Position numbers and translations under genes: made by a program
The notes under the pieces: generated by a model
Told to the model about the DNA's origin: nothing
Database searches by the model: none
What the model saw: the letters and a program-made list of their open reading frames with translations, nothing else
Part shown: in pieces, positions 1 through 64,000 of the stretch
How the letters are laid out: every line of letters starts with the position of its first letter
How positions within the stretch are numbered: position 1 is the first letter of the stretch
Assembly: GCA_964036665.1 (NCBI GenBank)
Contig: OZ038531.1
Span: 12,834,168 to 12,898,167, forward strand
Direction: 5' to 3'
Length of the DNA stretch: 64,000 nucleotides
Source: Gordius sp. MW1
Taxonomy: Eukaryota > Nematomorpha > Gordioida > Gordea > Gordiidae

Positions 1-2454
1 GCATTATGTCCTGTTAGAATCCCGATAAGAATTTTTGCAGGGCGGAAGTTTTAGATTGCGAAAAATTAAAATTTAAGTGTTGCGTTTAGATTGTTTCAAT
101 ATCGCTTTTAAGCGTGTCTCCAGTTTTTGTGAAACAAGCTCATGCGATCGTGATTTAAAGTTAAAAATTTCTGATGACTGATCAAAAATTTTTTTTTTCG
201 GAATTCACCTCTGATATCGAAAACTTTCATGAGGGGTTTATGGTTGAACAAAAAAATTGAAACTTTTGAGGTCGAAAAAAATATTTTTTTTCATATTCAT
301 TCAAAAGGGGGCTGAAAAAATCTTTGAAAGTTAGTAAATATTCTTAGCATTATGTCCTTGTTACAATCTCGATAAAGAATTTTTGCACGGGTGAAGTTTT
401 AGATTGAGAGAAATTAAAATTTACGTGTTGCGTTTAGATTGTTTCAATATCGCTTTTTAAGCGTGTATCCAGTTTTTGTGAAACAAGCTCTATGCAATAG
501 TGATTTAAAGTTAAAAATTTCTGATGACTGATCAAAAAATTTTTTTTTTCGGAATTCACCTCTGATATCGAAAACTTTCATGAGGGGTTTATGGTTGAAC
601 AAAAAAATTGAAAAAATTTTGAGGTCGAAAAAAATATTTTTTTTCATATTCATTCAAAAGGGGGCTGAAAATTTTTTTGAAAGTTAGTAAATATTCTTAG
701 CATTATGTCCTTGTTAGAATCTCGATAAGAATTTTTCCACGGGGGGGAAGTTTTAGTTTGCGAGAAATTAAAATTTAAGTGTTGCGTTTAGATTGTTTCA
801 ATATCGCTCTTTAAGCGTCTCTCCAGTTTTAGTGAAACAAGCTCATGCGATAGTGATTTAAAGTTAAAAATTTTTGATGACTGATCAAAAATTTTTTTTT
901 CGAAATTCACCTCTGATATCGAAAACTTTCATGAGGGGTTTATGGTTGAACAAAAAAATTGAAAAAATTTTGAGGTCGAAAAAAATATTTTTTTTCATAT
1001 TCATTCAAAAGGGGGCTGAAAAAATCTATGAAAGTTAGTAAATATTCTTAGCATTATGTCCTTGTTAGAATCTCGATAAAGAATTTTTGCACGGGTGAAG
1101 TTTTAGATTGAGAGAAATTAAAATTTATGTGTTGCTTTTAGATTGTTTCAATATCGCTTTTTAAGCGTGTCTCCAGTTTTGTGAAACAAGCTCATGCGAT
1201 CGTGATTTAAAGTTAAAAATTTCTGATGACTGATCAAAAAAAATTTTTTTTTCGGAATTCACCTCTGATATCGAAAACTTTCATGAGGGGTTTATGGTTG
1301 AACAAAATAAAGGAAAAAATTTTGAGGTCGAAAAAAATATTTTTTTTCATATTCATTCAAAAGGGGGCTGAAAAAATCTTTGAAAGTTAGTAAATATTCT
1401 TAGCATTATGTCCTTGCTAAGAATCTCGATAAAGAATTTTTGCACGGGTGAAGTTTTAAATTGAGAGAAATTAAAATTTACGTGTTGTCGTTTAGATTGT
1501 TTCAATATCGCTTTTTAAGCGTGTATCTAGTTTTTGTGAAACAAGCTCCATGCGATCGTGATTTAAAGTTAATAATTTTTGATGAATGATCAAAAAAATT
1601 TTTTTTTTCGGAATTCACCTCTGATATCGAAAACTTTCATGAGGGGTTTATGGTTGAACAAAAAAATTGAAAAAATTTTGAGGTCGAAAAAAATATTTTT
1701 TTTCATATTCATTCAAAAGGGGGCTGAAAAAATCTTTGAAAGTTAGTAAATATTCTTAACATTATGTCCTGTTAGAATCCCGATAAGAATTTTTCCACGG
1801 GGGGGAAGTTTTAGATTGCTAGAAATTAAAATTTAAGTGTTGCGTTTAGATTGTTTCAATATCGCTTTTTAAGCGTGTCTCCAGTTTTTGAGAAACAAGC
1901 TCATGCGATAGTGATTTAAAGTTAAAAATTTCTGATGACTGACCAAAAAAAAAAAATTTCGGAATTCACCTCTGATATCGAAAACTTTCATGAGGGGTTT
2001 ATGGTTGAACAAAAAAATTGAAAAAATTTTGAGGTCGAAAAAAATTTTTTTTTTCATATTCATTCAAAAGGGGGCTGAAAAAATCTTTGAAAGTTAGTAA
2101 ATATTCTTAGCATTATGTCCTTGTTAGAATCTCGATAAGAATTTTTGCAGGGGGGAAGTTTTAGATTGCGAAAAATTAAAATTTAAGTGTTGCGTTTAGA
2201 TTGTTTCTCGCTTTTTAAGCGTGTATCCAGTTTTTGTGAAACAAGCTCTATGCGATCGTGATTTAAAGTTAATAATTTTTGATGACTAATCAAAATTTTT
2301 TTTTCGAAATTCACCTCTGATATCGCAAACTGTCATGAGGGGTTTATGGTTGAACAAAAAAATTGAAAAAATTTTGAGGTCGAAAAAAATATTTTTTTTC
2401 ATATTCATTCAAAAGGGGGCTGAAAAAATCTTTGAAAGTTAGTAAATATTCTTA

Positions 2455-2805
2455 ACATTATGTCCTGTTAGAATCCCGATAAGAATTTTTCCACGGGGGG
2501 GAAGTTTTAGATTGCTAGAAATTAAAATTTATGTGTTGCGTTTAGATTGTTTCAATATCGCTTCTTAAGCGTGTCTCCAGTTTTGTGAAACAAGCTCATG
2601 CGATCGTGATTTAAAGTTAAAAATTTCTGATGACTGATCAAAAAAAATTTTTTTTCCGGAATTCACCTCTGATATCGAAAACTTTCATGAGGGGTTATGG
2701 TTGAACAAAAAAATTGAAAAAATTTTGAGGTCGAAAAAAATATTTTTTTTCATATTCATTCAAAAGGGGGCTGAAAAAATCTTTGAAAGTTAGTAAATAT
2801 TCTTA
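2455..2805 (+). repeat. Hybrid monomer F/H
   Basis: It starts as F (TAACATTATG, CCACGGGGGGGAAG, ATTGCTAGAAATT) and continues as H (TTTATGTG, CGCTTCTTAAGCG, TTTTCCGGAATTC). The switch lies in roughly the first 80-120 bp. It also has a private GAGGGGTTATGG, one T short in the conserved core. Confidence 0.85.
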
Positions 2806-3155
2806 GCATTATGTCCTTGTTAGAATCTCGATAAGAATTTTTGCAGGGGGGAAGTTTTAGATTGCGAAAAATAAAAATTTGAGTGTTGCGTTTAGATTGT
2901 TTCAATATCGCTTTTAAGCGTGTCTCCAGTTTTTGTGAAACAAGCTCATGCGATCGTGATTTAAAGTTAAAAATTTCTGATGACTGATCAAAAAATTTTT
3001 TTTTTCGGAATTCACCTCTGATATCGAAAACTTTCATGAGGGGTTTATGGTTGAACAAAAAAATTGAAAAAATTTTGAGGTCGAAAAAAATATTTTTTTT
3101 CATATTCATTCAAAAGGGGGCTGAAAAAATCTTTGAAAGTTAGTAAATATTCTTA
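2806..3155 (+). repeat. Hybrid monomer G/A
   Basis: It starts as G (CTTGTTAGAATCTC, GCAGGGGGGAAG) and continues as A (CGCTTTTAAGCG, CTCATGCGATCG). It has private changes AAAAATAAAAATTTGAGTG. Confidence 0.82.
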
Positions 3156-5609
3156 GCATTATGTCCTTGTTAGAATCTCGATAAAGAATTTTTGCACGGG
3201 TGAAGTTTTAGATTGAGAGAAATTAAAATTTACGTGTGGTCGTTTAGATTGTTTCAATATCGCTTTTTAAGCGTGTATCCAGTTTTTGTGAAACAAGCTC
3301 CATGCGATCGTGATTTAAAGTTAATAATTTTTGATGAATGATCAAAAAAAATTTTTTTTTCGGAATTCACCTCTGATATCGAAAACTTTCATGAGGGGTT
3401 TATGGTTGAACAAAAAAATTGAAAAATATTGAGGTCGAAAAAAATATTTTTTTTCATATTCATTCAAAAGGGGGCTGAAAAAATCTTTGAAAGTTAGTAA
3501 ATATTCTTAGCATTATGTCCTTGTTAGAATCTCGATAAAGAATTTTTGCACGGGTGAAGTTTTAGATTGAGAGAAATTAAAATTTATGTGTTGCGTTTGG
3601 ATTGTTTCAATATCGCTTCTTAAGCGTGTCTCCAGTTTTGTGAAACAAGCTCATGCGATCGTGATTTAAAGTTAAAAATTTCTGATGACTGATCAAAAAA
3701 ATTTTTTTTCCGGAATTCACCTCTGATATCGAAAACTTTCATGAGGGGTTTATGGTTGAACAAAAAAATTGAAAAATATTGAGGTCGAAAAAAATATTTT
3801 TTTTCATATTCTTTTGAAAGGGGGCTGAAAAAATCTTTGAAAGTTAGTAAATATTCTTAGCATTATGTCCTTGTTAGAGTCTCGATAAGAATTTTTGCAC
3901 GGGTGAAGTTTTAGACTGAGAGAAATTAAAATTTAAGTGTTTCGTTTAGATTGTTTCAATATCGCTTTTTAAGCGTGTATCCAGTTTTTGTGAAACAAGC
4001 TCATGCGATAGTGATTTAAAGTTAAAAATTTTTGATGACTGATCAAAAAATTTTTTTTTTTCGCAATTCACCTCTGATATCGAAAACTTTCATGAGGGGT
4101 TTATGGTTGAACAAAAAAATTGAAAAAATTTTGAGGTCGAAAAAAATATTTTTTTTCATATTCATTCAAAGGGGCTGAAAAAATCTTTGAAAGTTAGTAA
4201 ATATTCTAGGCATTATGTCCTTGTTAGAATCTCGATAAGAATTTTTGCACGGGTGAAGTTTTAGACTGAGAGAAATTAAAATTTAATTGTTTCGTTTAGA
4301 TTGTTTCAATATCGCTTTTTAAGCGTGTATCCAGTTTTTGTGAAACAAGCTCATGCGATAGTGATTTAAAGTTAAAAATTTTTGATGACTGATCAAAAAA
4401 ATTTTTTTTTTCGGAATTCACCTCTGATATCGAAAACTTTCATGAGGGGTTTATGGTTGAACAAAAAAATTGAAAAAATTTTGAGGTCGAAAAAAATATT
4501 TTTTTTCATATTCATTCGGGGGCTGAAAAAATCTTTGAAAGTTAGTAAATATTCTTAGCATTATGTCCTTGTTAGAATCTCGATAAAGAATTTTTGCACG
4601 GGTGAAGTTTTAGATTGAGAGAAATTAAAATTTATGTGTTGCGTTTAGATTGTTTCAATATCGCTTCTTAAGCGTGTCTCCAGTTTTGTGAAACAAGCTC
4701 ATGCGATCGTGATTTAAAGTTAAAAATTTCTGATGACTGATCAAAAAAATTTTTTTTTCCGGAATTCACCTCTGATATCGAAAACTTTCATGAGGGGTTT
4801 ATGGTTGAACAAAAAAATTGAAAAAATTTTGAGGTCAAAAAAAATATTTTTTTTTCATATTCATTCAAAAGGGGGCTGAAAAAATCTTTGAAAGTTAGTA
4901 AATATTCTTAGCATTATGTCCTGTTAGAATCCCGATAAGAATTTTTGCGGGGCGGAAGTTTTAGATTGCGAAAAATTAAAATTTAAGTGTTGCGTTTAGA
5001 TTGTTTCAATATCGCTTTTAAGCGTGTCTCCAGTTTTTGTGAAACAAGCTCATGCGATCGTGATTTAAAGTTAAAAATTTCTGATGACTGATCAAAAATT
5101 TTTTTTTTCGGAATTCACCTCTGATATCGAAAACTTTCATGAGGGGTTTATGGTTGAACAAAAAAATTGAAACTTTTGAGGTCGAAAAAAATATTTTTTT
5201 TCATATTCATTCAAAAGGGGGCTGAAAAAATCTTAGAAAGTTAGTAAATATTCTTAGCATTATGTCCTTGTTACAATCTCGATAAAGAATTTTTGCACGG
5301 GTGAAGTTTTAGATTGAGAGAAATTAAAATTTACGTGTTGCGTTTAGATTGTTTCAATATCGCTTTTTAAGCGTGTATCCAGTTTTTGTGAAACAAGCTC
5401 TATGCAATAGTGATTTAAAGTTAAAAATTTCTGATGACTGATCAAAAAATTTTTTTTTTCGGAATTCACCTCTGATATCGAAAACTTTCATGAGGGGTTT
5501 ATGGTTGAACAAAAAAATTGAAAAAATTTTGAGGTCGAAAAAAATATTTTTTTTCATATTCATTCAAAAGGGGGCTGAAAATTTTTTTGAAAGTTAGTAA
5601 ATATTCTTA

Positions 5610-5959
5610 GCATTATGTCCTTGTTAGAATCTCGATAAGAATTTTTCCACGGGGGGGAAGTTTTAGTTTGCGAGAAATTAAAATTTAAGTGTTGCGTTTA
5701 GATTGTTTCAATATCGCTCTTTAAGCGTCTCTCCAGTTTTAGTGAAACAAGCTCATGCGATAGTGATTTAAAGTTAAAAATTTTTGATGACTGATCAAAA
5801 ATTTTTTTTTCGAAATTCACCTCTGATATCGAAAACTTTCATGAGGGGTTTATGGTTGAACAAAAAAATTGAAAAAATTTTGAGGTCGAAAAAAATTTTT
5901 TTTTCATATTCATTCAAAAGGGGGCTGAAAAAATCTTTGAAAGTTAGTAAATATTCTTA
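5610..5959 (+). repeat. Hybrid monomer C/F (3' switch)
   Basis: The 5' three-quarters are C (AGTTTGCGAG, CGCTCTTTAAGCG, CGAAATTCACC). The 3' A/T junction lacks the TA and reads A7T9, as in F. The next monomer is G, the normal successor of F, so this is probably the junction of a C-to-F deletion. Confidence 0.75.
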
Positions 5960-7004
5960 GCATTATGTCCTTGTTAGAATCTCGATAAGAATTTTTGCAG
6001 GGGGGAAGTTTTAGATTGCGAAAAATTAAAATTTAAGTGTTGCGTTTAGATTGTTTCTCGCTTTTTAAGCGTGTATCCAGTTTTTGTGAAACAAGCTCTA
6101 TGCGGTCGTGATTTAAAGTTAATAATTTTTGATGACTAATCAAAATTTTTTTTTCGAAATTCACCTCTGATATCGCAAACTGTCATGAGGGGTTTATGGT
6201 TGAACAAAAAAATTGAAAAAATTTTGAGGTCGAAAAAAATATTTTTTTTCATATTCATTCAAAAGGGGGCTGAAAAAATCTTTGAAAGTTAGTAAATATT
6301 CTTAACATTATGTCCTGTTAGAATCCCGATAAGAATTTTTCCACGGGGGGGAAGTTTTAGATTGCTAGAAATTAAAATTTAAGTGTTGCGTTTAGATTGT
6401 TTCAATATCGCTTTTTAAGCGTGTCTCCAGTTTTTGAGAAACAAGCTCATGCGATAGTGATTTAAAGTTAAAAATTTCTGATGACTGACCAAAAAAAAAA
6501 AATTTCGGAATTCACCTCTGATATCGAAAACTTTCATGAGGGGTTTATGGTTGAACAAAAAAATTGAAAAAATTTTGAGGTCAAAAAAAATATTTTTTTT
6601 TCATATTCATTCAAAAGGGGGCTGAAAAAATCTTTGAAAGTTAGTAAATATTCTTAGCATTATGTCCTGTTAGAATCCCGATAAGAATTTTTGCAGGGCG
6701 GAAGTTTTAGATTGCGAAAAATTAAAATTTAAGTGTTGCGTTTAGATTGTTTCAATATCGCTTTTAAGCGTGTCTCCAGTTTTTGTGAAACAAGCTGATG
6801 CGATCGTGATTTAAAGTTAAAAATTTCTGATGACTGATCAAAAATTTTTTTTTTCGGAATTCACCTCTGATATCGAAAACTTTCATGAGGGGTTTATGGT
6901 TGAACAAAAAAATTGAAAAAATTTTGAGGTCGAAAAAAATATTTTTTTTCATATTCATTCAAAAGGGGGCTGAAAAAATCTTTGAAAGTTAGTAAATATT
7001 CTTA

Positions 7005-7357
7005 GCATTATGTCCTTGTTACAATCTCGATAAAGAATTTTTGCACGGGTGAAGTTTTAGATTGAGAGAAATTAAAATTTACTTGTTGCGTTTAGATTGT
7101 TTCAATATCGCTTCTTAAGCGTGTCTCCAGTTTTGTGAAACAAGCTCATGCGATCGTGATTTAAAGTTAAAAATTTCTGATGACTGATCAAAAAATTTTT
7201 TTTTTCCGGAATTCACCTCTGATATCCAAAACTTTCATGAGGGGTTTATGGTTGAACAAAAAAATTGAAAAAATTTTGAGGTCAAAAAAAATATTTTTTT
7301 TTCATATTCATTCAAAAGGGGGCTGAAAAAATCTTTGAAAGTTAGTAAATATTCTTA
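7005..7357 (+). repeat. Hybrid monomer B/H
   Basis: It begins as B (TTACAATCTCGATAAAG) and ends as H (CGCTTCTTAAGCG, TTTTCCGGAATTC, GAGGTCAAAAAAAAT). The private markers TTTACTTGTTG and GATATCCAAAAC are shared with the copy at 10515. A third B/H hybrid at 18930 lacks them. Confidence 0.87.
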
Positions 7358-9116
7358 GCATTATGTCCTGTTAGAATCCCGATAAGAATTTTTGCAGGGC
7401 GGAAGTTTTAGATTGCGAAAAATTAAAATTTAAGTGTTGCGTTTAGATTGTTTCAATATCGCTTTTAAGCGTGTCTCCAGTTTTTGTGAAACAAGCTCAT
7501 GCGATCGTGATTTAAAGTTAAAAATTTCTGATGACTGATCAAAAATTTTTTTTTTCGGAATTCACCTCTGATATCGAAAACTTTCATGAGGGGTTTATGG
7601 TTGAACAAAAAAATTGAAAAAATTTTGAGGTCGAAAAAAATATTTTTTTTCATATTCATTCAAAAGGGGGCTGAAAAAATCTTTGAAAGTTAGTAAATAT
7701 TCTTAGCATTATGTCCTTGTTACAATCTCGATAAAGAATTTTTGCACGGGTGAAGTTTTAGATTGAGAGAAATTAAAATTTACGTGTTGCGTTTAGATTG
7801 TTTCAATATCGCTTTTTAAGCGTGTATCCAGTTTTTGTGAAACAAGCTCTATGCAATAGTGATTTAAAGTTAAAAATTTCTGATGACTGATCAAAAAATT
7901 TTTTTTTTCGGAATTCACCTCTGATATCGAAAACTTTCATGAGGGGTTTATGGTTGAACAAAAAAATTGAAAAAATTTTGAGGTCGAAAAAAATATTTTT
8001 TTTCATATTCATTCAAAAGGGGGCTGAAAATTTTTTTGAAAGTTAGTAAATATTCTTAGCATTATGTCCTTGTTAGAATCTCGATAAGAATTTTTCCACG
8101 GGGGGGAAGTTTTAGTTTGCGAGAAATTAAAATTTAAGTGTTGCGTTTAGATTGTTTCAATATCGCTCTTTAAGCGTCTCTCCAGTTTTAGTGAAACAAG
8201 CTCATGCGATAGTGATTTAAAGTTAAAAATTTTTGATGACTGATCAAAAATTTTTTTTTCGAAATTCACCTCTGATATCGAAAACTTTCATGAGGGGTTT
8301 ATGGTTGAACAAAAAAATTGAAAAAATTTTGAGGTCGAAAAAAATATTTTTTTCATATTCATTCAAAAGGGGGCTGAAAAAATCTTTGAAAGTTAGTAAA
8401 TATTCTTAGCATTATGTCCTTGTTAGAATCTCGATAAAGAATTTTTGCACGGGTGAAGTTTTAGATTGAGAGAAATTAAAATTTATGTGTTGCGTTTAGA
8501 TTGTCTCAATATCGCTTTTTAAGCGTGTCTCCAGTTTTGTGAAACAAGCTCATGCGATCGTGATTTAAAGTTAAAAATTTCTGATGACTGATCAAAAAAA
8601 TTTTTTTTTTCGGAATTCACCTCTGATATCGAAAACTTTCATGAGGGGTTTATGGTTGAACAAAATAAAGGAAAAAATTTTGAGGTCGAAAAAAATATTT
8701 TTTTTCATATTCATTCAAAAGGGGGCTGAAAAAATCTTTGAAAGTTAGTAAATATTCTTAGCATTATGTCCTTGCTAAGAATCTCGATAAAGAATTTTTG
8801 CACGGGTGAAGTTTTAAATTGAGAGAAATTAAAATTTACGTGTTGTCGTTTAGATTGTTTCAATATCGCTTTTTAAGCGTGTATCCAGTTTTTGTGAAAC
8901 AAGCTCCATGCGATCGTGATTTAAAGTTAATAATTTTTGATGAATGATCAAAAAAATTTTTTTTTTCGGAATTCACCTCTGATATCGAAAACTTTCATGA
9001 GGGGTTTATGGTTGAACAAAAAAATTGAAAAAATTTTGAGGTCGAAAAAAATATTTTTTTTCATATTCATTCAAAAGGGGGCTGAAAAAATCTTTGAAAG
9101 TTAGTAAATATTCTTA

Positions 9117-9469
9117 ACATTATGTCCTGTTAGAATCCCGATAAGAATTTTTCCACGGGGGGGAAGTTTTAGATTGCTAGAAATTAAAATTTAAGTGTTG
9201 CGTTTAGATTGTTTCAATATCGCTTTTTAAGCGTGTCTCCAGTTTTTGAGAAACAAGCTCATGCGATCGTGATTTAAAGTTAAAAATTTCTGATGACTGA
9301 TCAAAAAAAATTTTTTTTTCGGAATTCACCTCTGATATCGAAAACTTTCATGAGGGGTTTATGGTTGAACAAAATAAAGGAAAAAATTTTGAGGTCGAAA
9401 AAAATATTTTTTTTCATATTCATTCAAAAGGGGGCTGAAAAAATCTTTGAAAGTTAGTAAATATTCTTA
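9117..9469 (+). repeat. Hybrid monomer F/D
   Basis: F markers run through TTTTTGAGAAAC. Then CATGCGATCGTG, GACTGATC and AACAAAATAAAGG of class D follow, so the switch is near the middle of the unit. The same hybrid recurs at 12626, where it is followed by an additional D instead of G. Confidence 0.87.
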
Positions 9470-10514
9470 GCATTATGTCCTTGTTAGAATCTCGATAAGA
9501 ATTTTTGCAGGGGGGAAGTTTTAGATTGCGAAAAATTAAAATTTAAGTGTTGCGTTTAGATTGTTTCTCGCTTTTTAAGCGTGTATCCAGTTTTTGTGAA
9601 ACAAGCTCTATGCGGTCGTGATTTAAAGTTAATAATTTTTGATGACTAATCAAAATTTTTTTTTCGAAATTCACCTCTGATATCGCAAACTGTCATGAGG
9701 GGTTTATGGTTGAACAAAAAAATTGAAAAAATTTTGAGGTCGAAAAAAATATTTTTTTTCATATTCATTCAAAAGGGGGCTGAAAAAATCTTTGAAAGTT
9801 AGTAAATATTCTTAACATTATGTCCTGTTAGAATCCCGATAAGAATTTTTCCACGGGGGGGAAGTTTTAGATTGCTAGAAATTAAAATTTAAGTGTTGCG
9901 TTTAGATTGTTTCAATATCGCTTTTTAAGCGTGTCTCCAGTTTTTGAGAAACAAGCTCATGCGATAGTGATTTAAAGTTAAAAATTTCTGATGACTGACC
10001 AAAAAAAAAAAATTTCGGAATTCACCTCTGATATCGAAAACTTTCATGAGGGGTTTATGGTTGAACAAAAAAATTGAAAAAATTTTGAGGTCAAAAAAAA
10101 TATTTTTTTTTCATATTCATTCAAAAGGGGGCTGAAAAAATCTTTGAAAGTTAGTAAATATTCTTAGCATTATGTCCTGTTAGAATCCCGATAAGAATTT
10201 TTGCAGGGCGGAAGTTTTAGATTGCGAAAAATTAAAATTTAAGTGTTGCGTTTAGATTGTTTCAATATCGCTTTTAAGCGTGTCTCCAGTTTTTGTGAAA
10301 CAAGCTGATGCGATCGTGATTTAAAGTTAAAAATTTCTGATGACTGATCAAAAATTTTTTTTTTCGGAATTCACCTCTGATATCGAAAACTTTCATGAGG
10401 GGTTTATGGTTGAACAAAAAAATTGAAAAAATTTTGAGGTCGAAAAAAATATTTTTTTTCATATTCATTCAAAAGGGGGCTGAAAAAATCTTTGAAAGTT
10501 AGTAAATATTCTTA

Positions 10515-10867
10515 GCATTATGTCCTTGTTACAATCTCGATAAAGAATTTTTGCACGGGTGAAGTTTTAGATTGAGAGAAATTAAAATTTACTTGTTGCG
10601 TTTAGATTGTTTCAATATCGCTTCTTAAGCGTGTCTCCAGTTTTGTGAAACAAGCTCATGCGATCGTGATTTAAAGTTAAAAATTTCTGATGACTGATCA
10701 AAAAATTTTTTTTTTCCGGAATTCACCTCTGATATCCAAAACTTTCATGAGGGGTTTATGGTTGAACAAAAAAATTGAAAAAATTTTGAGGTCAAAAAAA
10801 ATATTTTTTTTTCATATTCATTCAAAAGGGGGCTGAAAAAATCTTTGAAAGTTAGTAAATATTCTTA
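10515..10867 (+). repeat. Hybrid monomer B/H, duplicate
   Basis: Same junction and same private changes (TTTACTTGTTG, GATATCCAAAAC) as the hybrid at 7005, 3510 bp downstream of it. Confidence 0.87.
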
Positions 10868-18700: not shown

Positions 18701-19282
18701 CCAGTTTTTGTGAAACAAGCTCATGCGATCGTGATTTAAAGTTAAAAATTTCTGATGACTGATCAAAAATTTTTTTTTTCGGAATTCACCTCTGATATCG
18801 AAAACTTTCATGAGGGGTTTATGGTTGAACAAAAAAATTGAAAAAATTTTGAGGTCGAAAAAAATATTTTTTTTCATATTCATTCAAAAGGGGGCTGAAA
18901 AAATCTTTGAAAGTTAGTAAATATTCTTAGCATTATGTCCTTGTTACAATCTCGATAAAGAATTTTTGCACGGGTGAAGTTTTAGATTGAGAGAAATTAA
19001 AATTTACGTGTTGCGTTTAGATTGTTTCAATATCGCTTCTTAAGCGTGTCTCCAGTTTTGTGAAACAAGCTCATGCGATCGTGATTTAAAGTTAAAAATT
19101 TCTGATGACTGATCAAAAAAATTTTTTTTTCCGGAATTCACCTCTGATATCGAAAACTTTCATGAGGGGTTTATGGTTGAACAAAAAAATTGAAAAAATT
19201 TTGAGGTCAAAAAAAATATTTTTTTTTCATATTCATTCAAAAGGGGGCTGAAAAAATCTTTGAAAGTTAGTAAATATTCTTA
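15781..19282 (+). repeat. HOR block 5, 10-mer
   Basis: Order: A 15781, B 16127, C 16480, D 16831, E 17183, F 17539, G 17885, F with H-type tail 18230, A 18582, B/H hybrid 18930. The F at 17539 has a private loss at GAGGTAAAATTT. The F at 18230 has a T inside its A run (AAAATAAATTTCGG). The opening A carries the sublineage change also seen at 1 and 4911. Confidence 0.9.
18930..19282 (+). repeat. Hybrid monomer B/H, third copy
   Basis: B 5' end (TTACAATC, TTTACGTGTTGCG) and H 3' end (CGCTTCTTAAGCG, TTTTCCGGAATTC). It lacks the private changes of the copies at 7005 and 10515, so it is either the older form or a separate event. Confidence 0.85.
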
Positions 19283-19630
19283 GCATTATGTCCTGTTAGA
19301 ATCCCGATAAGAATTTTTGCAGGGCGGAAGTTTTAGATTGCGAAAAATTAAAATTTAAGTGTTGCGTTTAGATTGTTTCAATATCGCTTTTAAGCGTGTC
19401 TCCAGTTTTTGTGAAACAAGCTCATGCGATCGTGATTTAAAGTTAAAAATTTCTGATGACTGATCAAAAATTTTTTTTTTCGGAATTCACCTCTGATATC
19501 GAAAACTTTCATGAGGGGTTTATGGTTGAACAAAAAAATTGAAAAAATTTTGAGGTCGAAAAAAATATTTTTTTTCATATTCATTCAAAAGGGGGCTGAA
19601 AAAATCTTTGAAAGTTAGTAAATATTCTTA
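19283..19630 (+). repeat. Reference class A monomer (348 bp)
   Basis: Class A is recognised by TGTTAGAATCCCGATAAG, GCAGGGCGGAAG, the shortened hairpin CGCTTTTAAGCG (2-base loop) and CTCATGCGATCG. In most of the window it follows a monomer with an H-type 3' end, so it is a convenient start of the higher-order unit. The copies at 1, 4911 and 15781 share a private change (TTGAAACTTTTGAGG in place of TTGAAAAAATTTTGAGG), marking a sublineage. Confidence 0.93.
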
Positions 19631-19734
19631 GCATTATGTCCTTGTTACAATCTCGATAAAGAATTTTTGCACGGGTGAAGTTTTAGATTGAGAGAAATTA
19701 AAATTTACGTGTTGCGTTTAGATTGTTTCAATAT

Positions 19735-19747
19735 CGCTTTTTAAGCG
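19735..19747. other. Short hairpin CGCTT-TTT-AAGCG (exemplar in class B)
   Basis: Five-base perfect arms with a 3-base loop, present near base 105 of the monomer in B, D, E, F, G and I. A has a 2-base loop, H has CTT in the loop, and C has one arm changed (CGCTC). It is one of the few GC-containing blocks of the variable half. Confidence 0.7.
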
Positions 19748-19884: not shown

Positions 19885-19910
19885 AAAAAAATTGAAAAAA
19901 TTTTGAGGTC

Positions 19911-51885: not shown

Positions 51886-52234
51886 GCATTATGTCCTTGT
51901 TAGAATCTCGATAAGAATTTTTGCAGGGCGGAAGTTTTAGATTGCGAAAAATTAAAATTTAAGTGTTGCGTTTAGATTGTTTCAATATCGCTTTTAAGCG
52001 TGTCTCCAGTTTTTGTGAAACAAGCTCATGCGATCGTGATTTAAAGTTAAAAATTTCTGATGACTGATCAAAAATTTTTTTTTTCGGAATTCACCTCTGA
52101 TATCGAAAACTTTCATGAGGGGTTTATGGTTGAACAAAAAAATTGAAAAAATTTTGAGGTCGAAAAAAATATTTTTTTTCATATTCATTCAAAAGGGGGC
52201 TGAAAAAATCTTTGAAAGTTAGTAAATATTCTTA
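51886..52234 (+). repeat. Hybrid monomer G/A
   Basis: It starts CCTTGTTAGAATCTCGATAAG like G and becomes A at GCAGGGCGGAAG and CGCTTTTAAGCG. It lies after F, the normal predecessor of G, and before B, the normal successor of A. It is distinct from the G/A hybrid at 2806. Confidence 0.85.
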
Positions 52235-54462
52235 GCATTATGTCCTTGTTACAATCTCGATAAAGAATTTTTGCACGGGTGAAGTTTTAGATTGAGAGAA
52301 ATTAAAATTTAGGTGTTGCGTTTAGATTGTTTCAATATCGCTTTTTAAGCGTGTATCCAGTTTTTGTGAAACAAGCTCTATGCAATAGTGATTTAAAGTT
52401 AAAAATTTCTGATGACTGATCAAAAAATTTTTTTTTTCGGAATTCACCTCTGATATCGAAAACTTTCATGAGGGGTTTATGGTTGAACAAAAAAATTGAA
52501 AAAATTTTGAGGTCGAAAAAAATATTTTTTTTCATATTCATTCAAAAGGGGGCTGAAAATTTTTTTGAAAGTTAGTAAATATTCTTAGCATTATGTCCTT
52601 GTTAGAATCTCGATAAGAATTTTTCCACGGGGGGGAAGTTTTAGTTTGCGAGAAATTAAAATTTAAGTGTTGCGTTTAGATTGTTTCAATATCGCTCTTT
52701 AAGCGTCTCTCCAGTTTTAGTGAAACAAGCTCATGCGATAGTGATTTAAAGTTAAAAATTTTTGATGACTGATCAAAAATTTTTTTTTCGAAATTCACCT
52801 CTGATATCGAAAACTTTCATGAGGGGTTTATGGTTGAACAAAAAAATTGAAAAAATTTTGAGGTCGAAAAAAATATTTTTTTTCATATTCATTCAAAAGG
52901 GGGCTGAAAAAATCATTGAAAGTTAGTAAATATTCTTAGCATTATGTCCTTGTTAGAATCTCGATAAAGAATTTTTGCACGGGTGAAGTTTTAGATTGAG
53001 AGAAATTAAAATTTATGTGTTGCGTTTAGATTGTTTCAATATCGCTTTTTAAGCGTGTCTCCAGTTTTGTGAAACAAGCTCATGCGATCGTGATTTAAAG
53101 TTAAAAATTTCTGATGACTGATCAAAAAAAATTTTTTTTTCGGAATTCACCTCTGATATCGAAAACTTTCATGAGGGGTTTATGGTTGAACAAAATAAAG
53201 GAAAAAATTTTGAGGTCGAAAAAAATATTTTTTTTCATATTCATTCAAAAGGGGGCTGAAAAAATCTTTGAAAGTTAGTAAATATTCTTAGCATTATGTC
53301 CTTGCTAAGAATCTCGATAAAGAATTTTTGCACGGGTGAAGTTTTAAATTGAGAGAAATTAAAATTTACGTGTTGTCGTTTAGATTGTTTCAATATCGCT
53401 TTTTAAGCGTGTATCCAGTTTTTGTGAAACAAGCTTCATGCGATCGTGATTTAAAGTTAATAATTTTTGATGAATGATCAAAAAAATTTTTTTTTTCGGA
53501 ATTCACCTCTGATATCGAAAACTTTCATGAGGGGTTTATGGTTGAACAAAAAAATTGAAAAAATTTTGAGGTCGAAAAAAATATTTTTTTTCATATTCAT
53601 TCAAAAGGGGGCTGAAAAAATCTTTGAAAGTTAGTAAATATTCTTAACATTATGTCCTGTTAGAATCCCGATAAGAATTTTTCCACGGGGGGGAAGTTTT
53701 AGATTGCTAGAAATTAAAATTTAAGTGTTGCGTTTAGATTGTTTCAATATCGCTTTTTAAGCGTGTCTCCAGTTTTTGAGAAACAAGCTCATGCGATAGT
53801 GATTTAAAGTTAAAAATTTCTGATGACTGACCAAAAAAAAAAAATTTCGGAATTCACCTCTGATATCGAAAACTTTCATGAGGGGTTTATAGTTGAACAA
53901 AAAAATTGAAAAAATTTTGAGGTCGAAAAAATTTTTTTTTTTCATATTCATTCAAAAGGGGGCTGAAAAAATCTTTGAAAGTTAGTAAATATTCTTAGCA
54001 TTATGTCCTTGTTAGAATCTCGATAAGAATTTTTGCAGGGGGGAAGTTTTAGATTGCGAAAAATTAAAATTTAAGTGTTGCGTTTAGATTGTTTCTCGCT
54101 TTTTAAGCGTGTATCCAGTTTTTGTGAAACAAGCTCTATGCGATCGTGATTTAAAGTTAATAATTTTTGATGACTAATCAAAATTTTTTTTTCGAAATTC
54201 ACCTCTGATATCGCAAACTGTCATGAGGGGTTTATGGTTGAACAAAAAAATTGAAAAAATTTTGAGGTCGAAAAAAATATTTTTTTTCATATTCATTCAA
54301 AAGGGGGCTGAAAAAATCTTTGAAAGTTAGTAAATATTCTTAACATTATGTCCTGTTAGAATCCCGATAAGAATTTTTCCACGGGGGGGAAGTTTTAGAT
54401 TGCTAGAAATTAAAATTTAAGTGTTGCGTTTAGAATGTTTCAATATCGCTTTTTAAGCGTGT
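51915..54462 (+). repeat. Second intra-array duplication, copy 2 (~2.5 kb)
   Basis: Partner of 38940-41487. It lies directly after the end of the 14.02-kb-offset duplication, so the two together carry about 12.6 kb of material from the 27-41 kb region to the 41-54 kb region, minus the four monomers F/A, B/Bd, I and H. Confidence 0.82.
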
Positions 54463-55049
54463 CTCCAGTTTTTGAGAAACAAGCTCATGCGATAGTGATT
54501 TAAAGTTAAAAATTTCTGATGACTGACCAAAAAAAAAAAATTTCGGAATTCACCTCTGATATCGAAAACTTTCATGAGGGGTTTATGGTTGAACAAAAAA
54601 ATTGAAAAAATTTTGAGGTCGAAAAAAATTTTTTTTTTCATATTCATTCAAAAGGGGGCTGAAAAAATCTTTGAAAGTTAGTAAATATTCTTAGCATTAT
54701 GTCCTTGCTAAGAATCTCGATAAAGAATTTTTGCACGGGTGAAGTTTTAAATTGAGAGAAATTAAAATTTACGTGTTGTCGTTTAGATTGTTTCAATATC
54801 GCTTTTTAAGCGTGTATCCAGTTTTTGTGAAACAAGCTCCATGCGATCGTGATTTAAAGTTAATAATTTTTGATGAATGATCAAAAAAATTTTTTTTTTC
54901 GGAATTCACCTCTGATATCGAAAACTTTCATGAGGGGTTTATGGTTGAACAAAAAAATTGAAAAAATTTTGAGGTCGAAAAAAATATTTTTTTTCATATT
55001 CATTCAAAAGGGGGCTGAAAAAATCTTTGAAAGTTAGTAAATATTCTTA

Positions 55050-57160
55050 GCATTATGTCCTTGTTAGAATCTCGATAAAGAATTTTTGCACGGGTGAAGT
55101 TTTAGATTGAGAGAAATTAAAATTTATGTGTTGCGTTTAGATTGTTTCAATATCGCTTTTTAAGCGTGTCTCCAGTTTTGTGAAACAAGCTCATGCGATC
55201 GTGATTTAAAGTTAAAAATTTCTGATGACTGATCAAAAAAATTTTTTTTTTCGGAATTCACCTCTGATATCGAAAACTTTCATGAGGGGTTTATGGTTGA
55301 ACAAAATAAAGGAAAAAATTTTGAGGTCGAAAAAAATATTTTTTTTCATATTCATTCAAAAGGGGGCTGAAAAAATCTTTGAAAGTTAGTAAATATTCTT
55401 AGCATTATGTCCTTGCTAAGAATCTCGATAAAGAATTTTTGCACGGGTGAAGTTTTAAATTGAGAGAAATTAAAATTTACGTGTTGTCGTTTAGATTGTT
55501 TCAATATCGCTTTTTAAGCGTGTATCCAGTTTTTGTGAAACAAGCTCCATGCGATCGTGATTTAAAGTTAATAATTTTTGATGAATGATCAAAAAATTTT
55601 TTTTTTTCGGAATTCACCTCTGATATCGAAAACTTTCATGAGGGGTTTATGGTTGAACAAAAAAATTGAAAAAATTTTGAGGTCGAAAAAAATATTTTTT
55701 TTCATATTCATTCAAAAGGGGGCTGAAAAAATCTTTGAAAGTTAGTAAATATTCTTAACATTATGTCCTGTTAGAATCCCGATAAGAATTTTTCCACGGG
55801 GGGGAAGTTTTAGATTGCTAGAAATTAAAATTTAAGTGTTGCGTTTAGATTGTTTCAATATCGCTTTTTAAGCGTGTCTCCAGTTTTTGAGAAACAAGCT
55901 CATGCGATAGTGATTTAAAGTTAAAAATTTCTGATGACTGACCAAAAAAAAAAAATTTCGGAATTCACCTCTGATATCGAAAACTTTCATGAGGGGTTTA
56001 TGGTTGAACAAAAAAATTGAAAAAATTTTGAGGTCGAAAAAAATTTTTTTTTTCATATTCATTCAAAAGGGGGCTGAAAAAATCTTTGAAAGTTAGTAAA
56101 TATTCTTAGCATTATGTCCTTGTTAGAATCTCGATAAGAATTTTTGCAGGGGGGAAGTTTTAGATTGCGAAAAATTAAAATTTAAGTGTTGCGTTTAGAT
56201 TGTTTCAATATCGCTCTTTAAGCGTCTCTCCAGTTTTAGTGAAACAAGCTCATGCGATAGTGATTTAAAGTTAAAAATTTTTGATGACTGATCAAAAATT
56301 TTTTTTTCGAAATTCACCTCTGATATCGAAAACTTTCATGAGGGGTTTATGGTTGAACAAAAAAATTGAAAAAATTTTGAGGTCGAAAAAAATATTTTTT
56401 TTCATATTCATTCAAAAGGGGGCTGAAAATTTTTTTGAAAGTTAGTAAATATTCTTAGCATTATGTCCTTGTTAGAATCTCGATAAGAATTTTTCCACGG
56501 GGGGGAAGTTTTAGTTTGCGAGAAATTAAAATTTAAGTGTTGCGTTTAGATTGTTTCAATATCGCTCTTTAAGCGTCTCTCCAGTTTTAGTGAAACAAGC
56601 TCATGCGATAGTGATTTAAAGTTAAAAATTTTTGATGACTGATCAAAAATTTTTTTTTCGAAATTCACCTCTGATATCGAAAACTTTCATGAGGGGTTTA
56701 TGGTTGAACAAAAAAATTGAAAAAATTTTGAGGTCGAAAAAAATATTTTTTTTCATATTCATTCAAAAGGGGGCTGAAAAAATCTTTGAAAGTTAGTAAA
56801 TATTCTTAGCATTATGTCCTTGTTAGAATCTCGATAAAGAATTTTTGCACGGGTGAAGTTTTAGATTGAGAGAAATTAAAATTTATGTGTTGCGTTTAGA
56901 TTGTTTCAATATCGCTTTTTAAGCGTGTCTCCAGTTTTGTGAAACAAGCTCATGCGATCGTGATTTAAAGTTAAAAATTTCTGATGACTGATCAAAAAAA
57001 ATTTTTTTTTCGGAATTCACCTCTGATATCGAAAACTTTCATGAGGGGTTTATGGTTGAACAAAATAAAGGAAAAAATTTTGAGGTCGAAAAAAATATTT
57101 TTTTTCATATTCATTCAAAAGGGGGCTGAAAAAATCTTTGAAAGTTAGTAAATATTCTTA
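55050..57160 (+). repeat. Local 6-mer D-E-F-G/C-C-D, copy 1
   Basis: Order: D 55050, E 55402, F 55758, G/C hybrid 56109, C 56458, D 56809. The unit is 2111 bp and is repeated directly downstream at the same length. The hybrid carries the B-type tail GAAAATTTTTTTGAAAG before C. Confidence 0.9.
56109..56457 (+). repeat. Hybrid monomer G/C
   Basis: G 5' part (GCAGGGGGGAAG, ATTGCGAAAAATT) then C (CGCTCTTTAAGCG, AGTTTTAGTGAAAC, CGAAATTCACC), with a B-type tail. The G-specific TTTCTCGC deletion is absent, which puts the switch before about base 100 of the monomer. Confidence 0.87.
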
Positions 57161-59271
57161 GCATTATGTCCTTGTTAGAATCTCGATAAAGAATTTTTGC
57201 ACGGGTGAAGTTTTAGATTGAGAGAAATTAAAATTTATGTGTTGCGTTTAGATTGTTTCAATATCGCTTTTTAAGCGTGTCTCCAGTTTTGTGAAACAAG
57301 CTCATGCGATCGTGATTTAAAGTTAAAAATTTCTGATGACTGATCAAAAAAATTTTTTTTTTCGGAATTCACCTCTGATATCGAAAACTTTCATGAGGGG
57401 TTTATGGTTGAACAAAATAAAGGAAAAAATTTTGAGGTCGAAAAAAATATTTTTTTTCATATTCATTCAAAAGGGGGCTGAAAAAATCTTTGAAAGTTAG
57501 TAAATATTCTTAGCATTATGTCCTTGCTAAGAATCTCGATAAAGAATTTTTGCACGGGTGAAGTTTTAAATTGAGAGAAATTAAAATTTACGTGTTGTCG
57601 TTTAGATTGTTTCAATATCGCTTTTTAAGCGTGTATCCAGTTTTTGTGAAACAAGCTCCATGCGATCGTGATTTAAAGTTAATAATTTTTGATGAATGAT
57701 CAAAAAATTTTTTTTTTTCGGAATTCACCTCTGATATCGAAAACTTTCATGAGGGGTTTATGGTTGAACAAAAAAATTGAAAAAATTTTGAGGTCGAAAA
57801 AAATATTTTTTTTCATATTCATTCAAAAGGGGGCTGAAAAAATCTTTGAAAGTTAGTAAATATTCTTAACATTATGTCCTGTTAGAATCCCGATAAGAAT
57901 TTTTCCACGGGGGGGAAGTTTTAGATTGCTAGAAATTAAAATTTAAGTGTTGCGTTTAGATTGTTTCAATATCGCTTTTTAAGCGTGTCTCCAGTTTTTG
58001 AGAAACAAGCTCATGCGATAGTGATTTAAAGTTAAAAATTTCTGATGACTGACCAAAAAAAAAAAATTTCGGAATTCACCTCTGATATCGAAAACTTTCA
58101 TGAGGGGTTTATGGTTGAACAAAAAAATTGAAAAAATTTTGAGGTCGAAAAAAATTTTTTTTTTCATATTCATTCAAAAGGGGGCTGAAAAAATCTTTGA
58201 AAGTTAGTAAATATTCTTAGCATTATGTCCTTGTTAGAATCTCGATAAGAATTTTTGCAGGGGGGAAGTTTTAGATTGCGAAAAATTAAAATTTAAGTGT
58301 TGCGTTTAGATTGTTTCAATATCGCTCTTTAAGCGTCTCTCCAGTTTTAGTGAAACAAGCTCATGCGATAGTGATTTAAAGTTAAAAATTTTTGATGACT
58401 GATCAAAAATTTTTTTTTCGAAATTCACCTCTGATATCGAAAACTTTCATGAGGGGTTTATGGTTGAACAAAAAAATTGAAAAAATTTTGAGGTCGAAAA
58501 AAATATTTTTTTTCATATTCATTCAAAAGGGGGCTGAAAATTTTTTTGAAAGTTAGTAAATATTCTTAGCATTATGTCCTTGTTAGAATCTCGATAAGAA
58601 TTTTTCCACGGGGGGGAAGTTTTAGTTTGCGAGAAATTAAAATTTAAGTGTTGCGTTTAGATTGTTTCAATATCGCTCTTTAAGCGTCTCTCCAGTTTTA
58701 GTGAAACAAGCTCATGCGATAGTGATTTAAAGTTAAAAATTTTTGATGACTGATCAAAAATTTTTTTTTCGAAATTCACCTCTGATATCGAAAACTTTCA
58801 TGAGGGGTTTATGGTTGAACAAAAAAATTGAAAAAATTTTGAGGTCGAAAAAAATATTTTTTTTCATATTCATTCAAAAGGGGGCTGAAAAAATCTTTGA
58901 AAGTTAGTAAATATTCTTAGCATTATGTCCTTGTTAGAATCTCGATAAAGAATTTTTGCACGGGTGAAGTTTTAGATTGAGAGAAATTAAAATTTATGTG
59001 TTGCGTTTAGATTGTTTCAATATCGCTTTTTAAGCGTGTCTCCAGTTTTGTGAAACAAGCTCATGCGATCGTGATTTAAAGTTAAAAATTTCTGATGACT
59101 GATCAAAAAAAATTTTTTTTTCGGAATTCACCTCTGATATCGAAAACTTTCATGAGGGGTTTATGGTTGAACAAAATAAAGGAAAAAATTTTGAGGTCGA
59201 AAAAAATATTTTTTTTCATATTCATTCAAAAGGGGGCTGAAAAAATCTTTGAAAGTTAGTAAATATTCTTA
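57161..59271 (+). repeat. Local 6-mer D-E-F-G/C-C-D, copy 2
   Basis: Order: D 57161, E 57513, F 57869, G/C hybrid 58220, C 58569, D 58920. Each monomer start lies 2111 bp downstream of its counterpart, apart from an intervening 1-bp shift or none. The identical hybrid shows that this is a duplication and not an independent recombination. Confidence 0.9.
58220..58568 (+). repeat. Hybrid monomer G/C, duplicate
   Basis: Identical junction and tail to the hybrid at 56109, 2111 bp downstream. Confidence 0.87.
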
Positions 59272-59627
59272 GCATTATGTCCTTGCTAAGAATCTCGATA
59301 AAGAATTTTTGCACGGGTGAAGTTTTAAATTGAGAGAAATTAAAATTTACGTGTTGTCGTTTAGATTGTTTCAATATCGCTTTTTAAGCGTGTATCCAGT
59401 TTTTGTGAAACAAGCTCCATGCGATCGTGATTTAAAGTTAATAATTTTTGATGAATGATCAAAAAAATTTTTTTTTTCGGAATTCACCTCTGATATCGAA
59501 AACTTTCATGAGGGGTTTATGGTTGAACAAAAAAATTGAAAAAATTTTGAGGTCGAAAAAAATATTTTTTTTCATATTCATTCAAAAGGGGGCTGAAAAA
59601 ATCTTTGAAAGTTAGTAAATATTCTTA

Positions 59628-59975
59628 GCATTATGTCCTTGCTAAGAATCTCGATAAAGAATTTTTGCACGGGTGAAGTTTTAAATTGAGAGAAATTAAA
59701 ATTTACGTGTTGTCGTTTAGATTGTTTCAATATCGCTTTTTAAGCGTGTATTTGTGAAACAAGCTCTATGCAATAGTGATTTAAAGTTAAAAATTTCTGA
59801 TGACTGATCAAAAAATTTTTTTTTTCGGAATTCACCTCTGATATCGAAAACTTTCATGAGGGGTTTATGGTTGAACAAAAAAATTGAAAAAATTTTGAGG
59901 TCGAAAAAAATATTTTTTTTCATATTCATTCAAAAGGGGGCTGAAAATTTTTTTGAAAGTTAGTAAATATTCTTA
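59628..59975 (+). repeat. Hybrid monomer E/Bd
   Basis: E 5' part (CCTTGCTAAGAATC, TTTAAATTGAG, GTTGTCGTTTAG) joined to Bd (GTGTATTTGTG, CTCTATGCAATAG, B-type tail). C follows instead of the usual I, showing that the 3' tail is followed here as if it were B. Confidence 0.87.
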
Positions 59976-62900
59976 GCATTATGTCCTTGTTAGAATCTCG
60001 ATAAGAATTTTTCCACGGGGGGGAAGTTTTAGTTTGCGAGAAATTAAAATTTAAGTGTTGCGTTTAGATTGTTTCAATATCGCTCTTTAAGCGTCTCTCC
60101 AGTTTTAGTGAAACAAGCTCATGCGATAGTGATTTAAAGTTAAAAATTTTTGATGACTGATCAAAAATTTTTTTTTCGAAATTCACCTCTGATATCGAAA
60201 ACTTTCATGAGGGGTTTATGGTTGAACAAAAAAATTGAAAAAATTTTGAGGTCGAAAAAAATATTTTTTTTCATATTCATTCAAAAGGGGGCTGAAAAAA
60301 TCTTTGAAAGTTAGTAAATATTCTTAGCATTATGTCCTTGTTAGAATCTCGATAAAGAATTTTTGCACGGGTGAAGTTTTAGATTGAGAGAAATTAAAAT
60401 TTATGTGTTGCGTTTAGATTGTTTCAATATCGCTTTTTAAGCGTGTCTCCAGTTTTGTGAAACAAGCTCATGCGATCGTGATTTAAAGTTAAAAATTTCT
60501 GATGACTGATCAAAAAAAATTTTTTTTTCGGAATTCACCTCTGATATCGAAAACTTTCATGAGGGGTTTATGGTTGAACAAAATAAAGGAAAAAATTTTG
60601 AGGTCGAAAAAAATATTTTTTTTCATATTCATTCAAAAGGGGGCTGAAAAAATCTTTGAAAGTTAGTAAATATTCTTAGCATTATGTCCTTGCTAAGAAT
60701 CTCGATAAAGAATTTTTGCACGGGTGAAGTTTTAAATTGAGAGAAATTAAAATTTACGTGTTGTCGTTTAGATTGTTTCAATATCGCTTTTTAAGCGTGT
60801 ATCCAGTTTTTGTGAAACAAGCTCCATGCGATCGTGATTTAAAGTTAATAATTTTTGATGAATGATCAAAAAAATTTTTTTTTTCGGAATTCACCTCTGA
60901 TATCGAAAACTTTCATGAGGGGTTTATGGTTGAACAAAAAAATTGAAAAAATTTTGAGGTCGAAAAAAATATTTTTTTTCATATTCATTCAAAAGGGGGC
61001 TGAAAAAATCTTTGAAAGTTAGTAAATATTCTTAGCATTATGTCCTTGCTAAGAATCTCGATAAAGAATTTTTGCACGGGTGAAGTTTTAAATTGAGAGA
61101 AATTAAAATTTACGTGTTGTCGTTTAGATTGTTTCAATATCGCTTTTTAAGCGTGTATCCAGTTTTTGTGAAACAAGCTCCATGCGATCGTGATTTAAAG
61201 TTAATAATTTTTGATGAATGATCAAAAAAATTTTTTTTTTCGGAATTCACCTCTGATATCGAAAACTTTCATGAGGGGTTTATGGTTGAACAAAAAAATT
61301 GAAAAAATTTTGAGGTCGAAAAAAATATTTTTTTTCATATTCATTCAAAAGGGGGCTGAAAAAATCTTTGAAAGTTAGTAAATATTCTTAACATTATGTC
61401 CTGTTAGAATCCCGATAAGAATTTTTCCACGGGGGGGAAGTTTTAGATTGCTAGAAATTAAAATTTAAGTGTTGCGTTTAGATTGTTTCAATATCGCTTT
61501 TTAAGCGTGTCTCCAGTTTTTGAGAAACAAGCTCATGCGATAGTGATTTAAAGTTAAAAATTTCTGATGACTGACCAAAAAAAAAAAATTTCGGAATTCA
61601 CCTCTGATATCGAAAACTTTCATGAGGGGTTTATGGTTGAACAAAAAAATTGAAAAAATTTTGAGGTCGAAAAAAATTTTTTTTTTCATATTCATTCAAA
61701 AGGGGGCTGAAAAAATCTTTGAAAGTTAGTAAATATTCTTAGCATTATGTCCTTGTTACAATCTCGATAAAGAATTTTTGCACGGGTGAAGTTTTAGATT
61801 GAGAGAAATTAAAATTTACGTGTTGCGTTTAGATTGTTTCAATATCGCTTTTTAAGCGTGTATTTGTGAAACAAGCTCTATGCAATAGTGATTTAAAGTT
61901 AAAAATTTCTGATGACTGATCAAAAAATTTTTTTTTTCGGAATTCACCTCTGATATCGAAAACTTTCATGAGGGGTTTATGGTTGAACAAAAAAATTGAA
62001 AAAATTTTGAGGTCGAAAAAAATATTTTTTTTCATATTCATTCAAAAGGGGGCTGAAAATTTTTTTGAAAGTTAGTAAATATTCTTAGCATTATGTCCTT
62101 GTTAGAATCTCGATAAGAATTTTTCCACGGGGGGGAAGTTTTAGTTTGCGAGAAATTAAAATTTAAGTGTTGCGTTTAGATTGTTTCAATATCGCTCTTT
62201 AAGCGTCTCTCCAGTTTTAGTGAAACAAGCTCATGCGATAGTGATTTAAAGTTAAAAATTTTTGATGACTGATCAAAAATTTTTTTTTCGAAATTCACCT
62301 CTGATATCGAAAACTTTCATGAGGGGTTTATGGTTGAACAAAAAAATTGAAAAAATTTTGAGGTCGAAAAAAATATTTTTTTTCATATTCATTCAAAAGG
62401 GGGCTGAAAATTTTTTTGAAAGTTAGTAAATATTCTTAGCATTATGTCCTTGTTAGAATCTCGATAAGAATTTTTCCACGGGGGGGAAGTTTTAGTTTGC
62501 GAGAAATTAAAATTTAAGTGTTGCGTTTAGATTGTTTCAATATCGCTCTTTAAGCGTCTCTCCAGTTTTAGTGAAACAAGCTCATGCGATAGTGATTTAA
62601 AGTTAAAAATTTTTGATGACTGATCAAAAATTTTTTTTTCGAAATTCACCTCTGATATCGAAAACTTTCATGAGGGGTTTATGGTTGAACAAAAAAATTG
62701 AAAAAATTTTGAGGTCGAAAAAAATATTTTTTTTCATATTCATTCAAAAGGGGGCTGAAAAAATCTTTGAAAGTTAGTAAATATTCTTAGCATTATGTCC
62801 TTGTTAGAATCTCGATAAAGAATTTTTGCACGGGTGAAGTTTTAGATTGAGAGAAATTAAAATTTATGTGTTGCGTTTAGATTGTTTCAATATCGCTTTT

Positions 62901-63497
62901 TAAGCGTGTCTCCAGTTTTGTGAAACAAGCTCATGCGATCGTGATTTAAAGTTAAAAATTTCTGATGACTGATCAAAAAAAATTTTTTTTTCGGAATTCA
63001 CCTCTGATATCGAAAACTTTCATGAGGGGTTTATGGTTGAACAAAATAAAGGAAAAAATTTTGAGGTCGAAAAAAATATTTTTTTTCATATTCATTCAAA
63101 AGGGGGCTGAAAAAATCTTTGAAAGTTAGTAAATATTCTTAGCATTATGTCCTTGCTAAGAATCTCGATAAAGAATTTTTGCACGGGTGAAGTTTTAAAT
63201 TGAGAGAAATTAAAATTTACGTGTTGTCGTTTAGATTGTTTCAATATCGCTTTTTAAGCGTGTATCCAGTTTTTGTGAAACAAGCTCCATGCGATCGTGA
63301 TTTAAAGTTAATAATTTTTGATGAATGATCAAAAAAATTTTTTTTTTCGGAATTCACCTCTGATATCGAAAACTTTCATGAGGGGTTTATGGTTGAACAA
63401 AAAAATTGAAAAAATTTTGAGGTCGAAAAAAATATTTTTTTTCATATTCATTCAAAAGGGGGCTGAAAAAATCTTTGAAAGTTAGTAAATATTCTTA

Positions 63498-63845
63498 GCA
63501 TTATGTCCTTGCTAAGAATCTCGATAAAGAATTTTTGCACGGGTGAAGTTTTAAATTGAGAGAAATTAAAATTTACGTGTTGTCGTTTAGATTGTTTCAA
63601 TATCGCTTTTTAAGCGTGTATTTGTGAAACAAGCTCTATGCAATAGTGATTTAAAGTTAAAAATTTCTGATGACTGATCAAAAAATTTTTTTTTTCGGAA
63701 TTCACCTCTGATATCGAAAACTTTCATGAGGGGTTTATGGTTGAACAAAAAAATTGAAAAAATTTTGAGGTCGAAAAAAATATTTTTTTTCATATTCATT
63801 CAAAAGGGGGCTGAAAATTTTTTTGAAAGTTAGTAAATATTCTTA
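63498..63845 (+). repeat. Hybrid monomer E/Bd, duplicate
   Basis: Same junction as 59628, 3870 bp downstream, again followed by C. Confidence 0.87.
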
Positions 63846-64000
63846 GCATTATGTCCTTGTTAGAATCTCGATAAGAATTTTTCCACGGGGGGGAAGTTTT
63901 AGTTTGCGAGAAATTAAAATTTAAGTGTTGCGTTTAGATTGTTTCAATATCGCTCTTTAAGCGTCTCTCCAGTTTTAGTGAAACAAGCTCATGCGATAGT

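Follow-up and report, generated by a model that had tools for sequence, protein, structure and literature searches.

Higher-Order Arrays of a 351-bp Satellite, a Probable Centromere Repeat, on the Eight Large Chromosomes of Gordius sp. MW1

Introduction

The window analysed in this work, the whole 64,000-bp stretch C5:12834168-12898167 of the Gordius sp. MW1 genome (assembly GCA_964036665.1, contig OZ038531.1), is repetitive from end to end, which raises the question of how such an array is ordered and which part of the chromosome it represents. A first-pass annotation, made from the letters of the window, had read it as a higher-order repeat (HOR) satellite, possibly centromeric. Chromosome-specific HOR arrays accompanied by a related satellite on their flanks are known best from primates. 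In a small genome (212 Mb), such a set assembled on each of the eight large chromosomes would let the association of core position, HOR turnover and strand inversion be tested, and with a satellite that has no evident CENP-B box.

Results

Tandem Repeats Finder returned a single array at window positions 1-63997 with a period of 351 and 182.4 copies, in agreement with the head-to-tail satellite and the monomer of about 351 bp annotated at first pass. A monomer-profile scan placed 183 head-to-tail monomers of this satellite (type 1) over positions 1..64000, all 183 on the + strand as previously claimed. Since only 1-2 bp separate successive monomer matches, the window carries no insertion, foreign or otherwise. 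The first and last monomers are cut by the window ends; the 181 whole ones (331..63829, + strand), which were used for the class analysis, measure 343-357 bp (median 351). GC content is even throughout (0.288-0.300) and GC skew is positive along the entire window. The observed/expected CpG ratio of 1.37 indicates no depletion and therefore no sign of methylation-driven decay.

One open reading frame of at least 100 amino acids was found within the 64 kb and no Rfam match was obtained in window positions 1-8000, on which grounds coding or structured-RNA content was rejected. A phage origin was rejected on the lack of a match for 703 bases among phage records. An origin of the 351-bp monomer as a dimer was likewise rejected (half-versus-half score 23, shuffled 95% value 34), as was a strong dyad within the monomer, a stretch of 350 bases having given an unremarkable z of 0.09 when folded as DNA. 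The CENP-B box motif gave zero matches in the window when both strands were searched with at most one substitution.

With a cut-off of 4.5% distance, average-linkage clustering split the window monomers into nine clusters, and with one of 2% into 17. Among the latter, ten with 11-27 members each account for 172 of the 181 whole monomers, and the remaining seven have one or two members. Median identity was 0.997 within and 0.932 between classes, tandem monomers thus falling into discrete, diverged classes, and each of the ten main classes has 2-11 private columns. Clustering on substitutions only (20 clusters at 1.2%) agreed with this partition (adjusted Rand index 0.905). The discrete classes of the first-pass annotation therefore exist, but their number, given there as nine, varies with the cut-off.

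In eight of the ten main classes, 74% or more of the members are followed by one and the same class; for the remaining two the share is 54% and 30%. Only 62 distinct three-class words were counted among 179, compared with a mean of 166.2 and a minimum of 156 in 1000 shuffles. With letters assigned by class size, the usual run is A-J-I-H-D-F-E-C-B-(A)-G-A-B, of 12 or 13 monomers, within which classes A and B recur. That the window has a fixed HOR period was rejected, since the best lag reached a mean identity of 0.950 and none was dominant. The order is thus far from random, as had been claimed, but it is a nested mosaic of block duplications and not one long repeating programme.

The mosaic comprises 96 collinear duplicated runs of at least four monomers, covering 165 of the 181 whole monomers; 200 shuffles gave a mean of 0.97 such runs, the longest of 6. 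Adjacent monomers in the window are 0.928 identical, compared with 0.994-0.9997 for the 14 longest duplicated runs, whose offsets range from 3.5 to 34 kb, so that multi-monomer units repeat at higher identity than neighbouring monomers. A block of 28 monomers lies at 27678..37500 and again at 41697..51518 (both + strand; offset 14,019 bp, mean identity 0.9992). One of ten monomers (5944..9453) is directly adjoined by its copy (9454..12962) in a tandem duplication of 3,510 bp (+ strand, identity 0.9997). Another, of 12 monomers, occurs three times on the + strand, at 13315..17522, 21378..25586 and 25930..30138, with 0.9967-0.9983 identity among copies and the third copy 4,552 bp (13 monomers) from the second. 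The order on C5 grew through repeated multi-monomer block duplication, giving irregular nested HORs. Unequal exchange or break-induced replication at an active core would create such blocks.

A fused monomer with a 57-bp internal duplication was seen at three sites in the C5 array (positions 5212-5325 of locus L014, and near C5:12,684,264 and C5:12,707,753). It looks as if an out-of-register exchange had produced it and block amplification had then carried it along.

Around the window, the 254-kb stretch C5:12674168-12928167 gave 737 monomer matches, some of them partial, all 737 on the + strand and with a largest gap of at most 12 bp. The stretch contains no N, and sub-regions of the array each have their own class programme. 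The + array was seen from about 12,621,916 to 12,933,167, the part at 12.624-12.674 Mb being covered by pattern matches only, and turns to the - strand at about 12,621,916. The single orientation annotated at first pass accordingly holds for the window but not for the locus, where the strand flips about 212 kb to the left. Samples at 12.55, 12.50 and 12.45 Mb were type 1 on the - strand, and those at 12.40, 13.0, 13.1 and 13.2 Mb were a distant relative, type 2, each oriented as its side.

The genome assembly amounts to 211.8 Mb in 12 contigs, eight of 21-37 Mb (C1 to C8), three small and one mitochondrial (14.8 kb). Pattern searches and sampled loci, as opposed to a full scan, showed each of the eight large contigs to carry a type-1 cluster as its one main array, those of C1, C4 and C8 from pattern matches only. 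With limits that are sampled extents and not full borders, the clusters are located at 13.19-13.29 Mb on C1 (+ where seen; 4 matches), 10.06-10.69 Mb on C2 (- to + by matches), 14.30-14.50 Mb on C3 (+ wherever seen), 2.49-2.59 Mb on C4 (- where seen; 10 matches), 12.45-12.93 Mb on C5 (- to +), 14.68-15.09 Mb on C6 (- to +, elsewhere + to -), 9.90-10.12 Mb on C7 (- to +) and 14.0-14.35 Mb on C8 (+ to -; 5 matches). In three pattern searches with all matches listed, 3/4, 14/15 and 14/15 fell inside the clusters, and in another 91 of the 100 matches listed (of 116) did so. A 26-mer allowed up to three mismatches had 8,735 genomic matches (3,875 forward, 4,860 reverse), compared with 0 for the reversed control, which corresponds to about 3 Mb of type 1 if each monomer gives one match.

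Small type-1 pieces were also found beyond the clusters, at 11.23 Mb on C1, 12.63 and 22.81 Mb on C2, 9.49 and 12.60 Mb on C3, 14.28 Mb on C5, 12.82 Mb on C6 and 8.28 Mb on C7. That on C1 (C1:11230000-11234500) is short and diverged, with six matches at 1.4-3.0 kb into the locus. Beside it, at locus positions 2-655, lies a reverse-transcriptase-like stretch (PF00078, E 8.8e-6, 26 bits, below the curated cut-off of 29.6).

Satellites often arise from transposable elements, and the start of the isolated C1 piece about 0.7 kb after this sub-cut-off stretch would fit a satellite that is a tandemly amplified part of such an element, with no role in the centromere. The restriction of the clusters to one place per large contig, together with the single open reading frame and the lack of an Rfam match reported above, makes this explanation highly improbable.

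In the arrays of C2, C3, C5, C6 and C7, the nearest monomer was on the same chromosome for 117 of 122 monomers: 67/67 on C5, 19/19 on C3, 12/12 on C2, 13/14 on C7 and, the weakest, 6/10 on C6. The monomers sampled per locus are neighbours, and this score of chromosome-specific homogenisation is partly a measure of local likeness. Four isolated monomers (C1, C2, C3) were closest to arrays of other chromosomes. Type 1 is thus mostly homogenised within the chromosome in the five sampled arrays. The C3 array is a regular 4-mer HOR, with an identity of 0.993 at lag 4 versus 0.943-0.951 at lags 1-3 (16 monomers), so that one genome carries a regular (C3) and a highly irregular (C5) HOR of the same satellite family.

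The different HOR type of C3 also bears on whether the block order of C5 is an artefact of assembling a simpler tandem array. Blocks up to 0.9997 identical are hard for assemblers, but an artefact would have to be reconciled with the private columns of every main class, with the wide range of offsets among the 14 longest runs and with 254 kb free of N, and we regard it as very unlikely.

The type-1 core switches strand on C2, C5, C6, C7 and C8, as read in letters on C5, C6 and C7 and by matches on C2 and C8. The change is from - to + on C2, C5, C6 and C7; the opposite one, from + to -, was found on C8 and elsewhere within C6. That all chromosomes follow one strand-switch rule was rejected, given these reversed cases, the flanks of C1 and C2, which flip several times, and the C3 core, which is + only. 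The - to + switches lie within one monomer at about 12,621,916 on C5, 15,081,963 on C6 and 9,939,357 on C7. These three junctions fall at different monomer positions, with no conserved inversion-site sequence among them; the inverted subarrays themselves are as in the Tribolium-type macro-dyad satellite. At the C7 junction, 43 bases (positions 269-311 of locus L046) recur exactly in inverted orientation (341-383) across a 29-base loop; perfect mirror arms were not found at the C5 junction.

A 343-bp consensus of type 2 was derived from nine samples (15 monomers; C3, C5 and C7). Over its entire length, and with the alignment continued round the circle, it matched type 1 at 65% identity and a score of 368, the best of 50 shuffles being 58; the score against reverse-complemented type 1 was 87, above the shuffles and far under the direct value. 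In a FastTree tree with up to six monomers per group, read for its topology and not for support values, type 1 of all the sampled chromosomes separated from type 2. Samples of C5 and C7 showed type 2 to either side of type 1, as did 28-mer matches on C1 and C2, and on C3 it was found on one side; no flanks were seen for C4, C6 and C8. Flanks oriented as their own side were observed on C5 and C7 only. The 100 matches listed of 427 for the type-2 28-mer end within C2; they are spread over 11.24-14.59 Mb of C1 and 8.48-11.51 Mb of C2.

Between chromosomes, type 2 had a mean identity of 0.925 (63 pairs, C3/C5/C7) and type 1 pair means of 0.888-0.937. The interpretation of type 2 as simply decayed old type 1 was rejected, because between chromosomes type 2 is the more uniform, and the same values do not support a simple age layering of the human type with older layers outside. 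The left and right type-2 flanks were 0.979 alike on C7 (12 pairs) and 0.864 on C5 (10 pairs).

Telomeres of the (TTAGGG)n type were found at 6 of the 11 nuclear contig starts, which leaves the hint of an arthropod source in the first-pass annotation weak. By eye, the starts of C4 and C9 share one GTCCGTTGTCCG-type minisatellite in opposite orientations, and C9 (1.37 Mb) may therefore be part of a chromosome end, for example that of C4. On the mitochondrial contig, COI was identified by PF00115 with the invertebrate code and the tRNAs by ARAGORN, the other genes being named by eye. The order is cob-S2, then L1, V, nd1 and L2 on the minus strand, then cox1-cox2-K-D-atp6-cox3-G-nd3-A-N-S1-nd4L-nd4. 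Taken with the telomere repeat, it would tentatively fit an ecdysozoan outside the typical arthropods. Upstream of cox1, at about 2600-4070, nd1-like fragments on both strands and an 11-base repeat run (TTACCTTACTA) between inverted stem copies were seen by eye. Many nuclear COI copies were also detected (C8:2829490-2830827, C5:672658-673997, and on C1, C3 and C4). One is full length, with 408 bits versus 410 for the mitochondrial contig, and the C4 copies, on the + strand at 0.36-0.38 Mb and on the - strand at 1.46-1.49 Mb, have the appearance of a large inverted duplication.

Discussion

The clusters on all eight large contigs, the mostly chromosome-specific homogenisation in five arrays and the related satellite round the core wherever flanks were seen support the first-pass suggestion of an HOR satellite, possibly centromeric. 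Type 1 is probably the centromere repeat, as predicted from its sequence and distribution. We give a probability of roughly three in four to the reading of the window as part of the C5 centromere core, with type 1 as the core satellite on the eight large chromosomes and type 2 as the pericentromeric one. Type 1 would then be the core under active homogenisation and the epigenetically determined seat of CenH3 chromatin, and type 2 would form pericentromeric heterochromatin.

Alternatively, type 1 could be a satellite of pericentromeric or general heterochromatin, with the kinetochore elsewhere, on type 2 or on a non-satellite core. The listed type-2 matches on C1 and C2 do cover spans far wider than those of the type-1 matches observed there. 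Type 1, however, sits within type 2 on C1, C2, C5 and C7, and its arrays are to a large extent specific to the chromosome and recently duplicated, both of which are usual in centromere cores. This location of the kinetochore is clearly unlikely, and type 1 as the core satellite is the reading retained.

A further proposal concerns how that core is built. Two inverted HOR arms (about 40 kb to 590 kb as seen) would meet head-on at strand-switch axes, flanks would keep the orientation of their own side (C5, C7), and the axis would be both the site of repeat addition and the centre of CenH3, a macro-dyad unlike the one-directional arrays of primates. We put this forward tentatively and consider it rather unlikely.

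No 351-bp satellite of such a kind was found by a search of open-licence papers with words, not sequences. On these literature words, the best reading is that the satellite is undescribed. By analogy, it is best read as an HOR satellite that may have converged on the alpha-satellite pattern. In cascading alpha-satellite HORs, monomer types reportedly occur more than once per unit, a pattern also seen here in classes A and B; the C5 order is more irregular than in these, and no fixed unit was found.

Like primate alpha satellite, as described for human chromosome 8 (PMC8099727), type 1 forms HORs from discrete classes of monomers, is homogenised largely within chromosomes and has its HOR core bordered by a divergent relative. 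The similarity of the C7 type-2 flanks resembles the mirrored layers described there; the lower value for the C5 flanks does not. Type 1 differs from alpha satellite in its monomer of 351 bp, not 171 bp, which has no half-repeat, in the lack of a CENP-B box in the window even when one substitution is allowed, in the strand switches within the core, and in its flanks, type 2 being a homogenised sister family and not decayed monomers.

In Tribolium madens (PMC13081366), the related satellites TmSat1 and TmSat2 share a progenitor and make up (peri)centromeric regions of megabase size, and their arrays change strand to give macro-dyad arrangements. Two related satellites and strand-switching arrays are likewise found here. 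TmSat1 and TmSat2 are finely intermingled, whereas types 1 and 2 look zoned into core and flank in our samples; the arms are longer here, up to about 590 kb by matches on C2; and, unlike in the Tribolium type, no conserved inversion site was evident among the three junctions, which differ in monomer position.

In Timema douglasi (PMC11691646), CenH3-bound tandem repeats occupy the autosomal centromeres and are specific to chromosomes or groups of them, some with HORs. Gordius sp. MW1 is similarly an invertebrate with largely chromosome-specific tandem repeats and HORs, here at candidate centromeres proposed from sequence. Several repeat families split the autosomes of T. douglasi, whereas in Gordius sp. 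MW1 one family is present on all eight large contigs.
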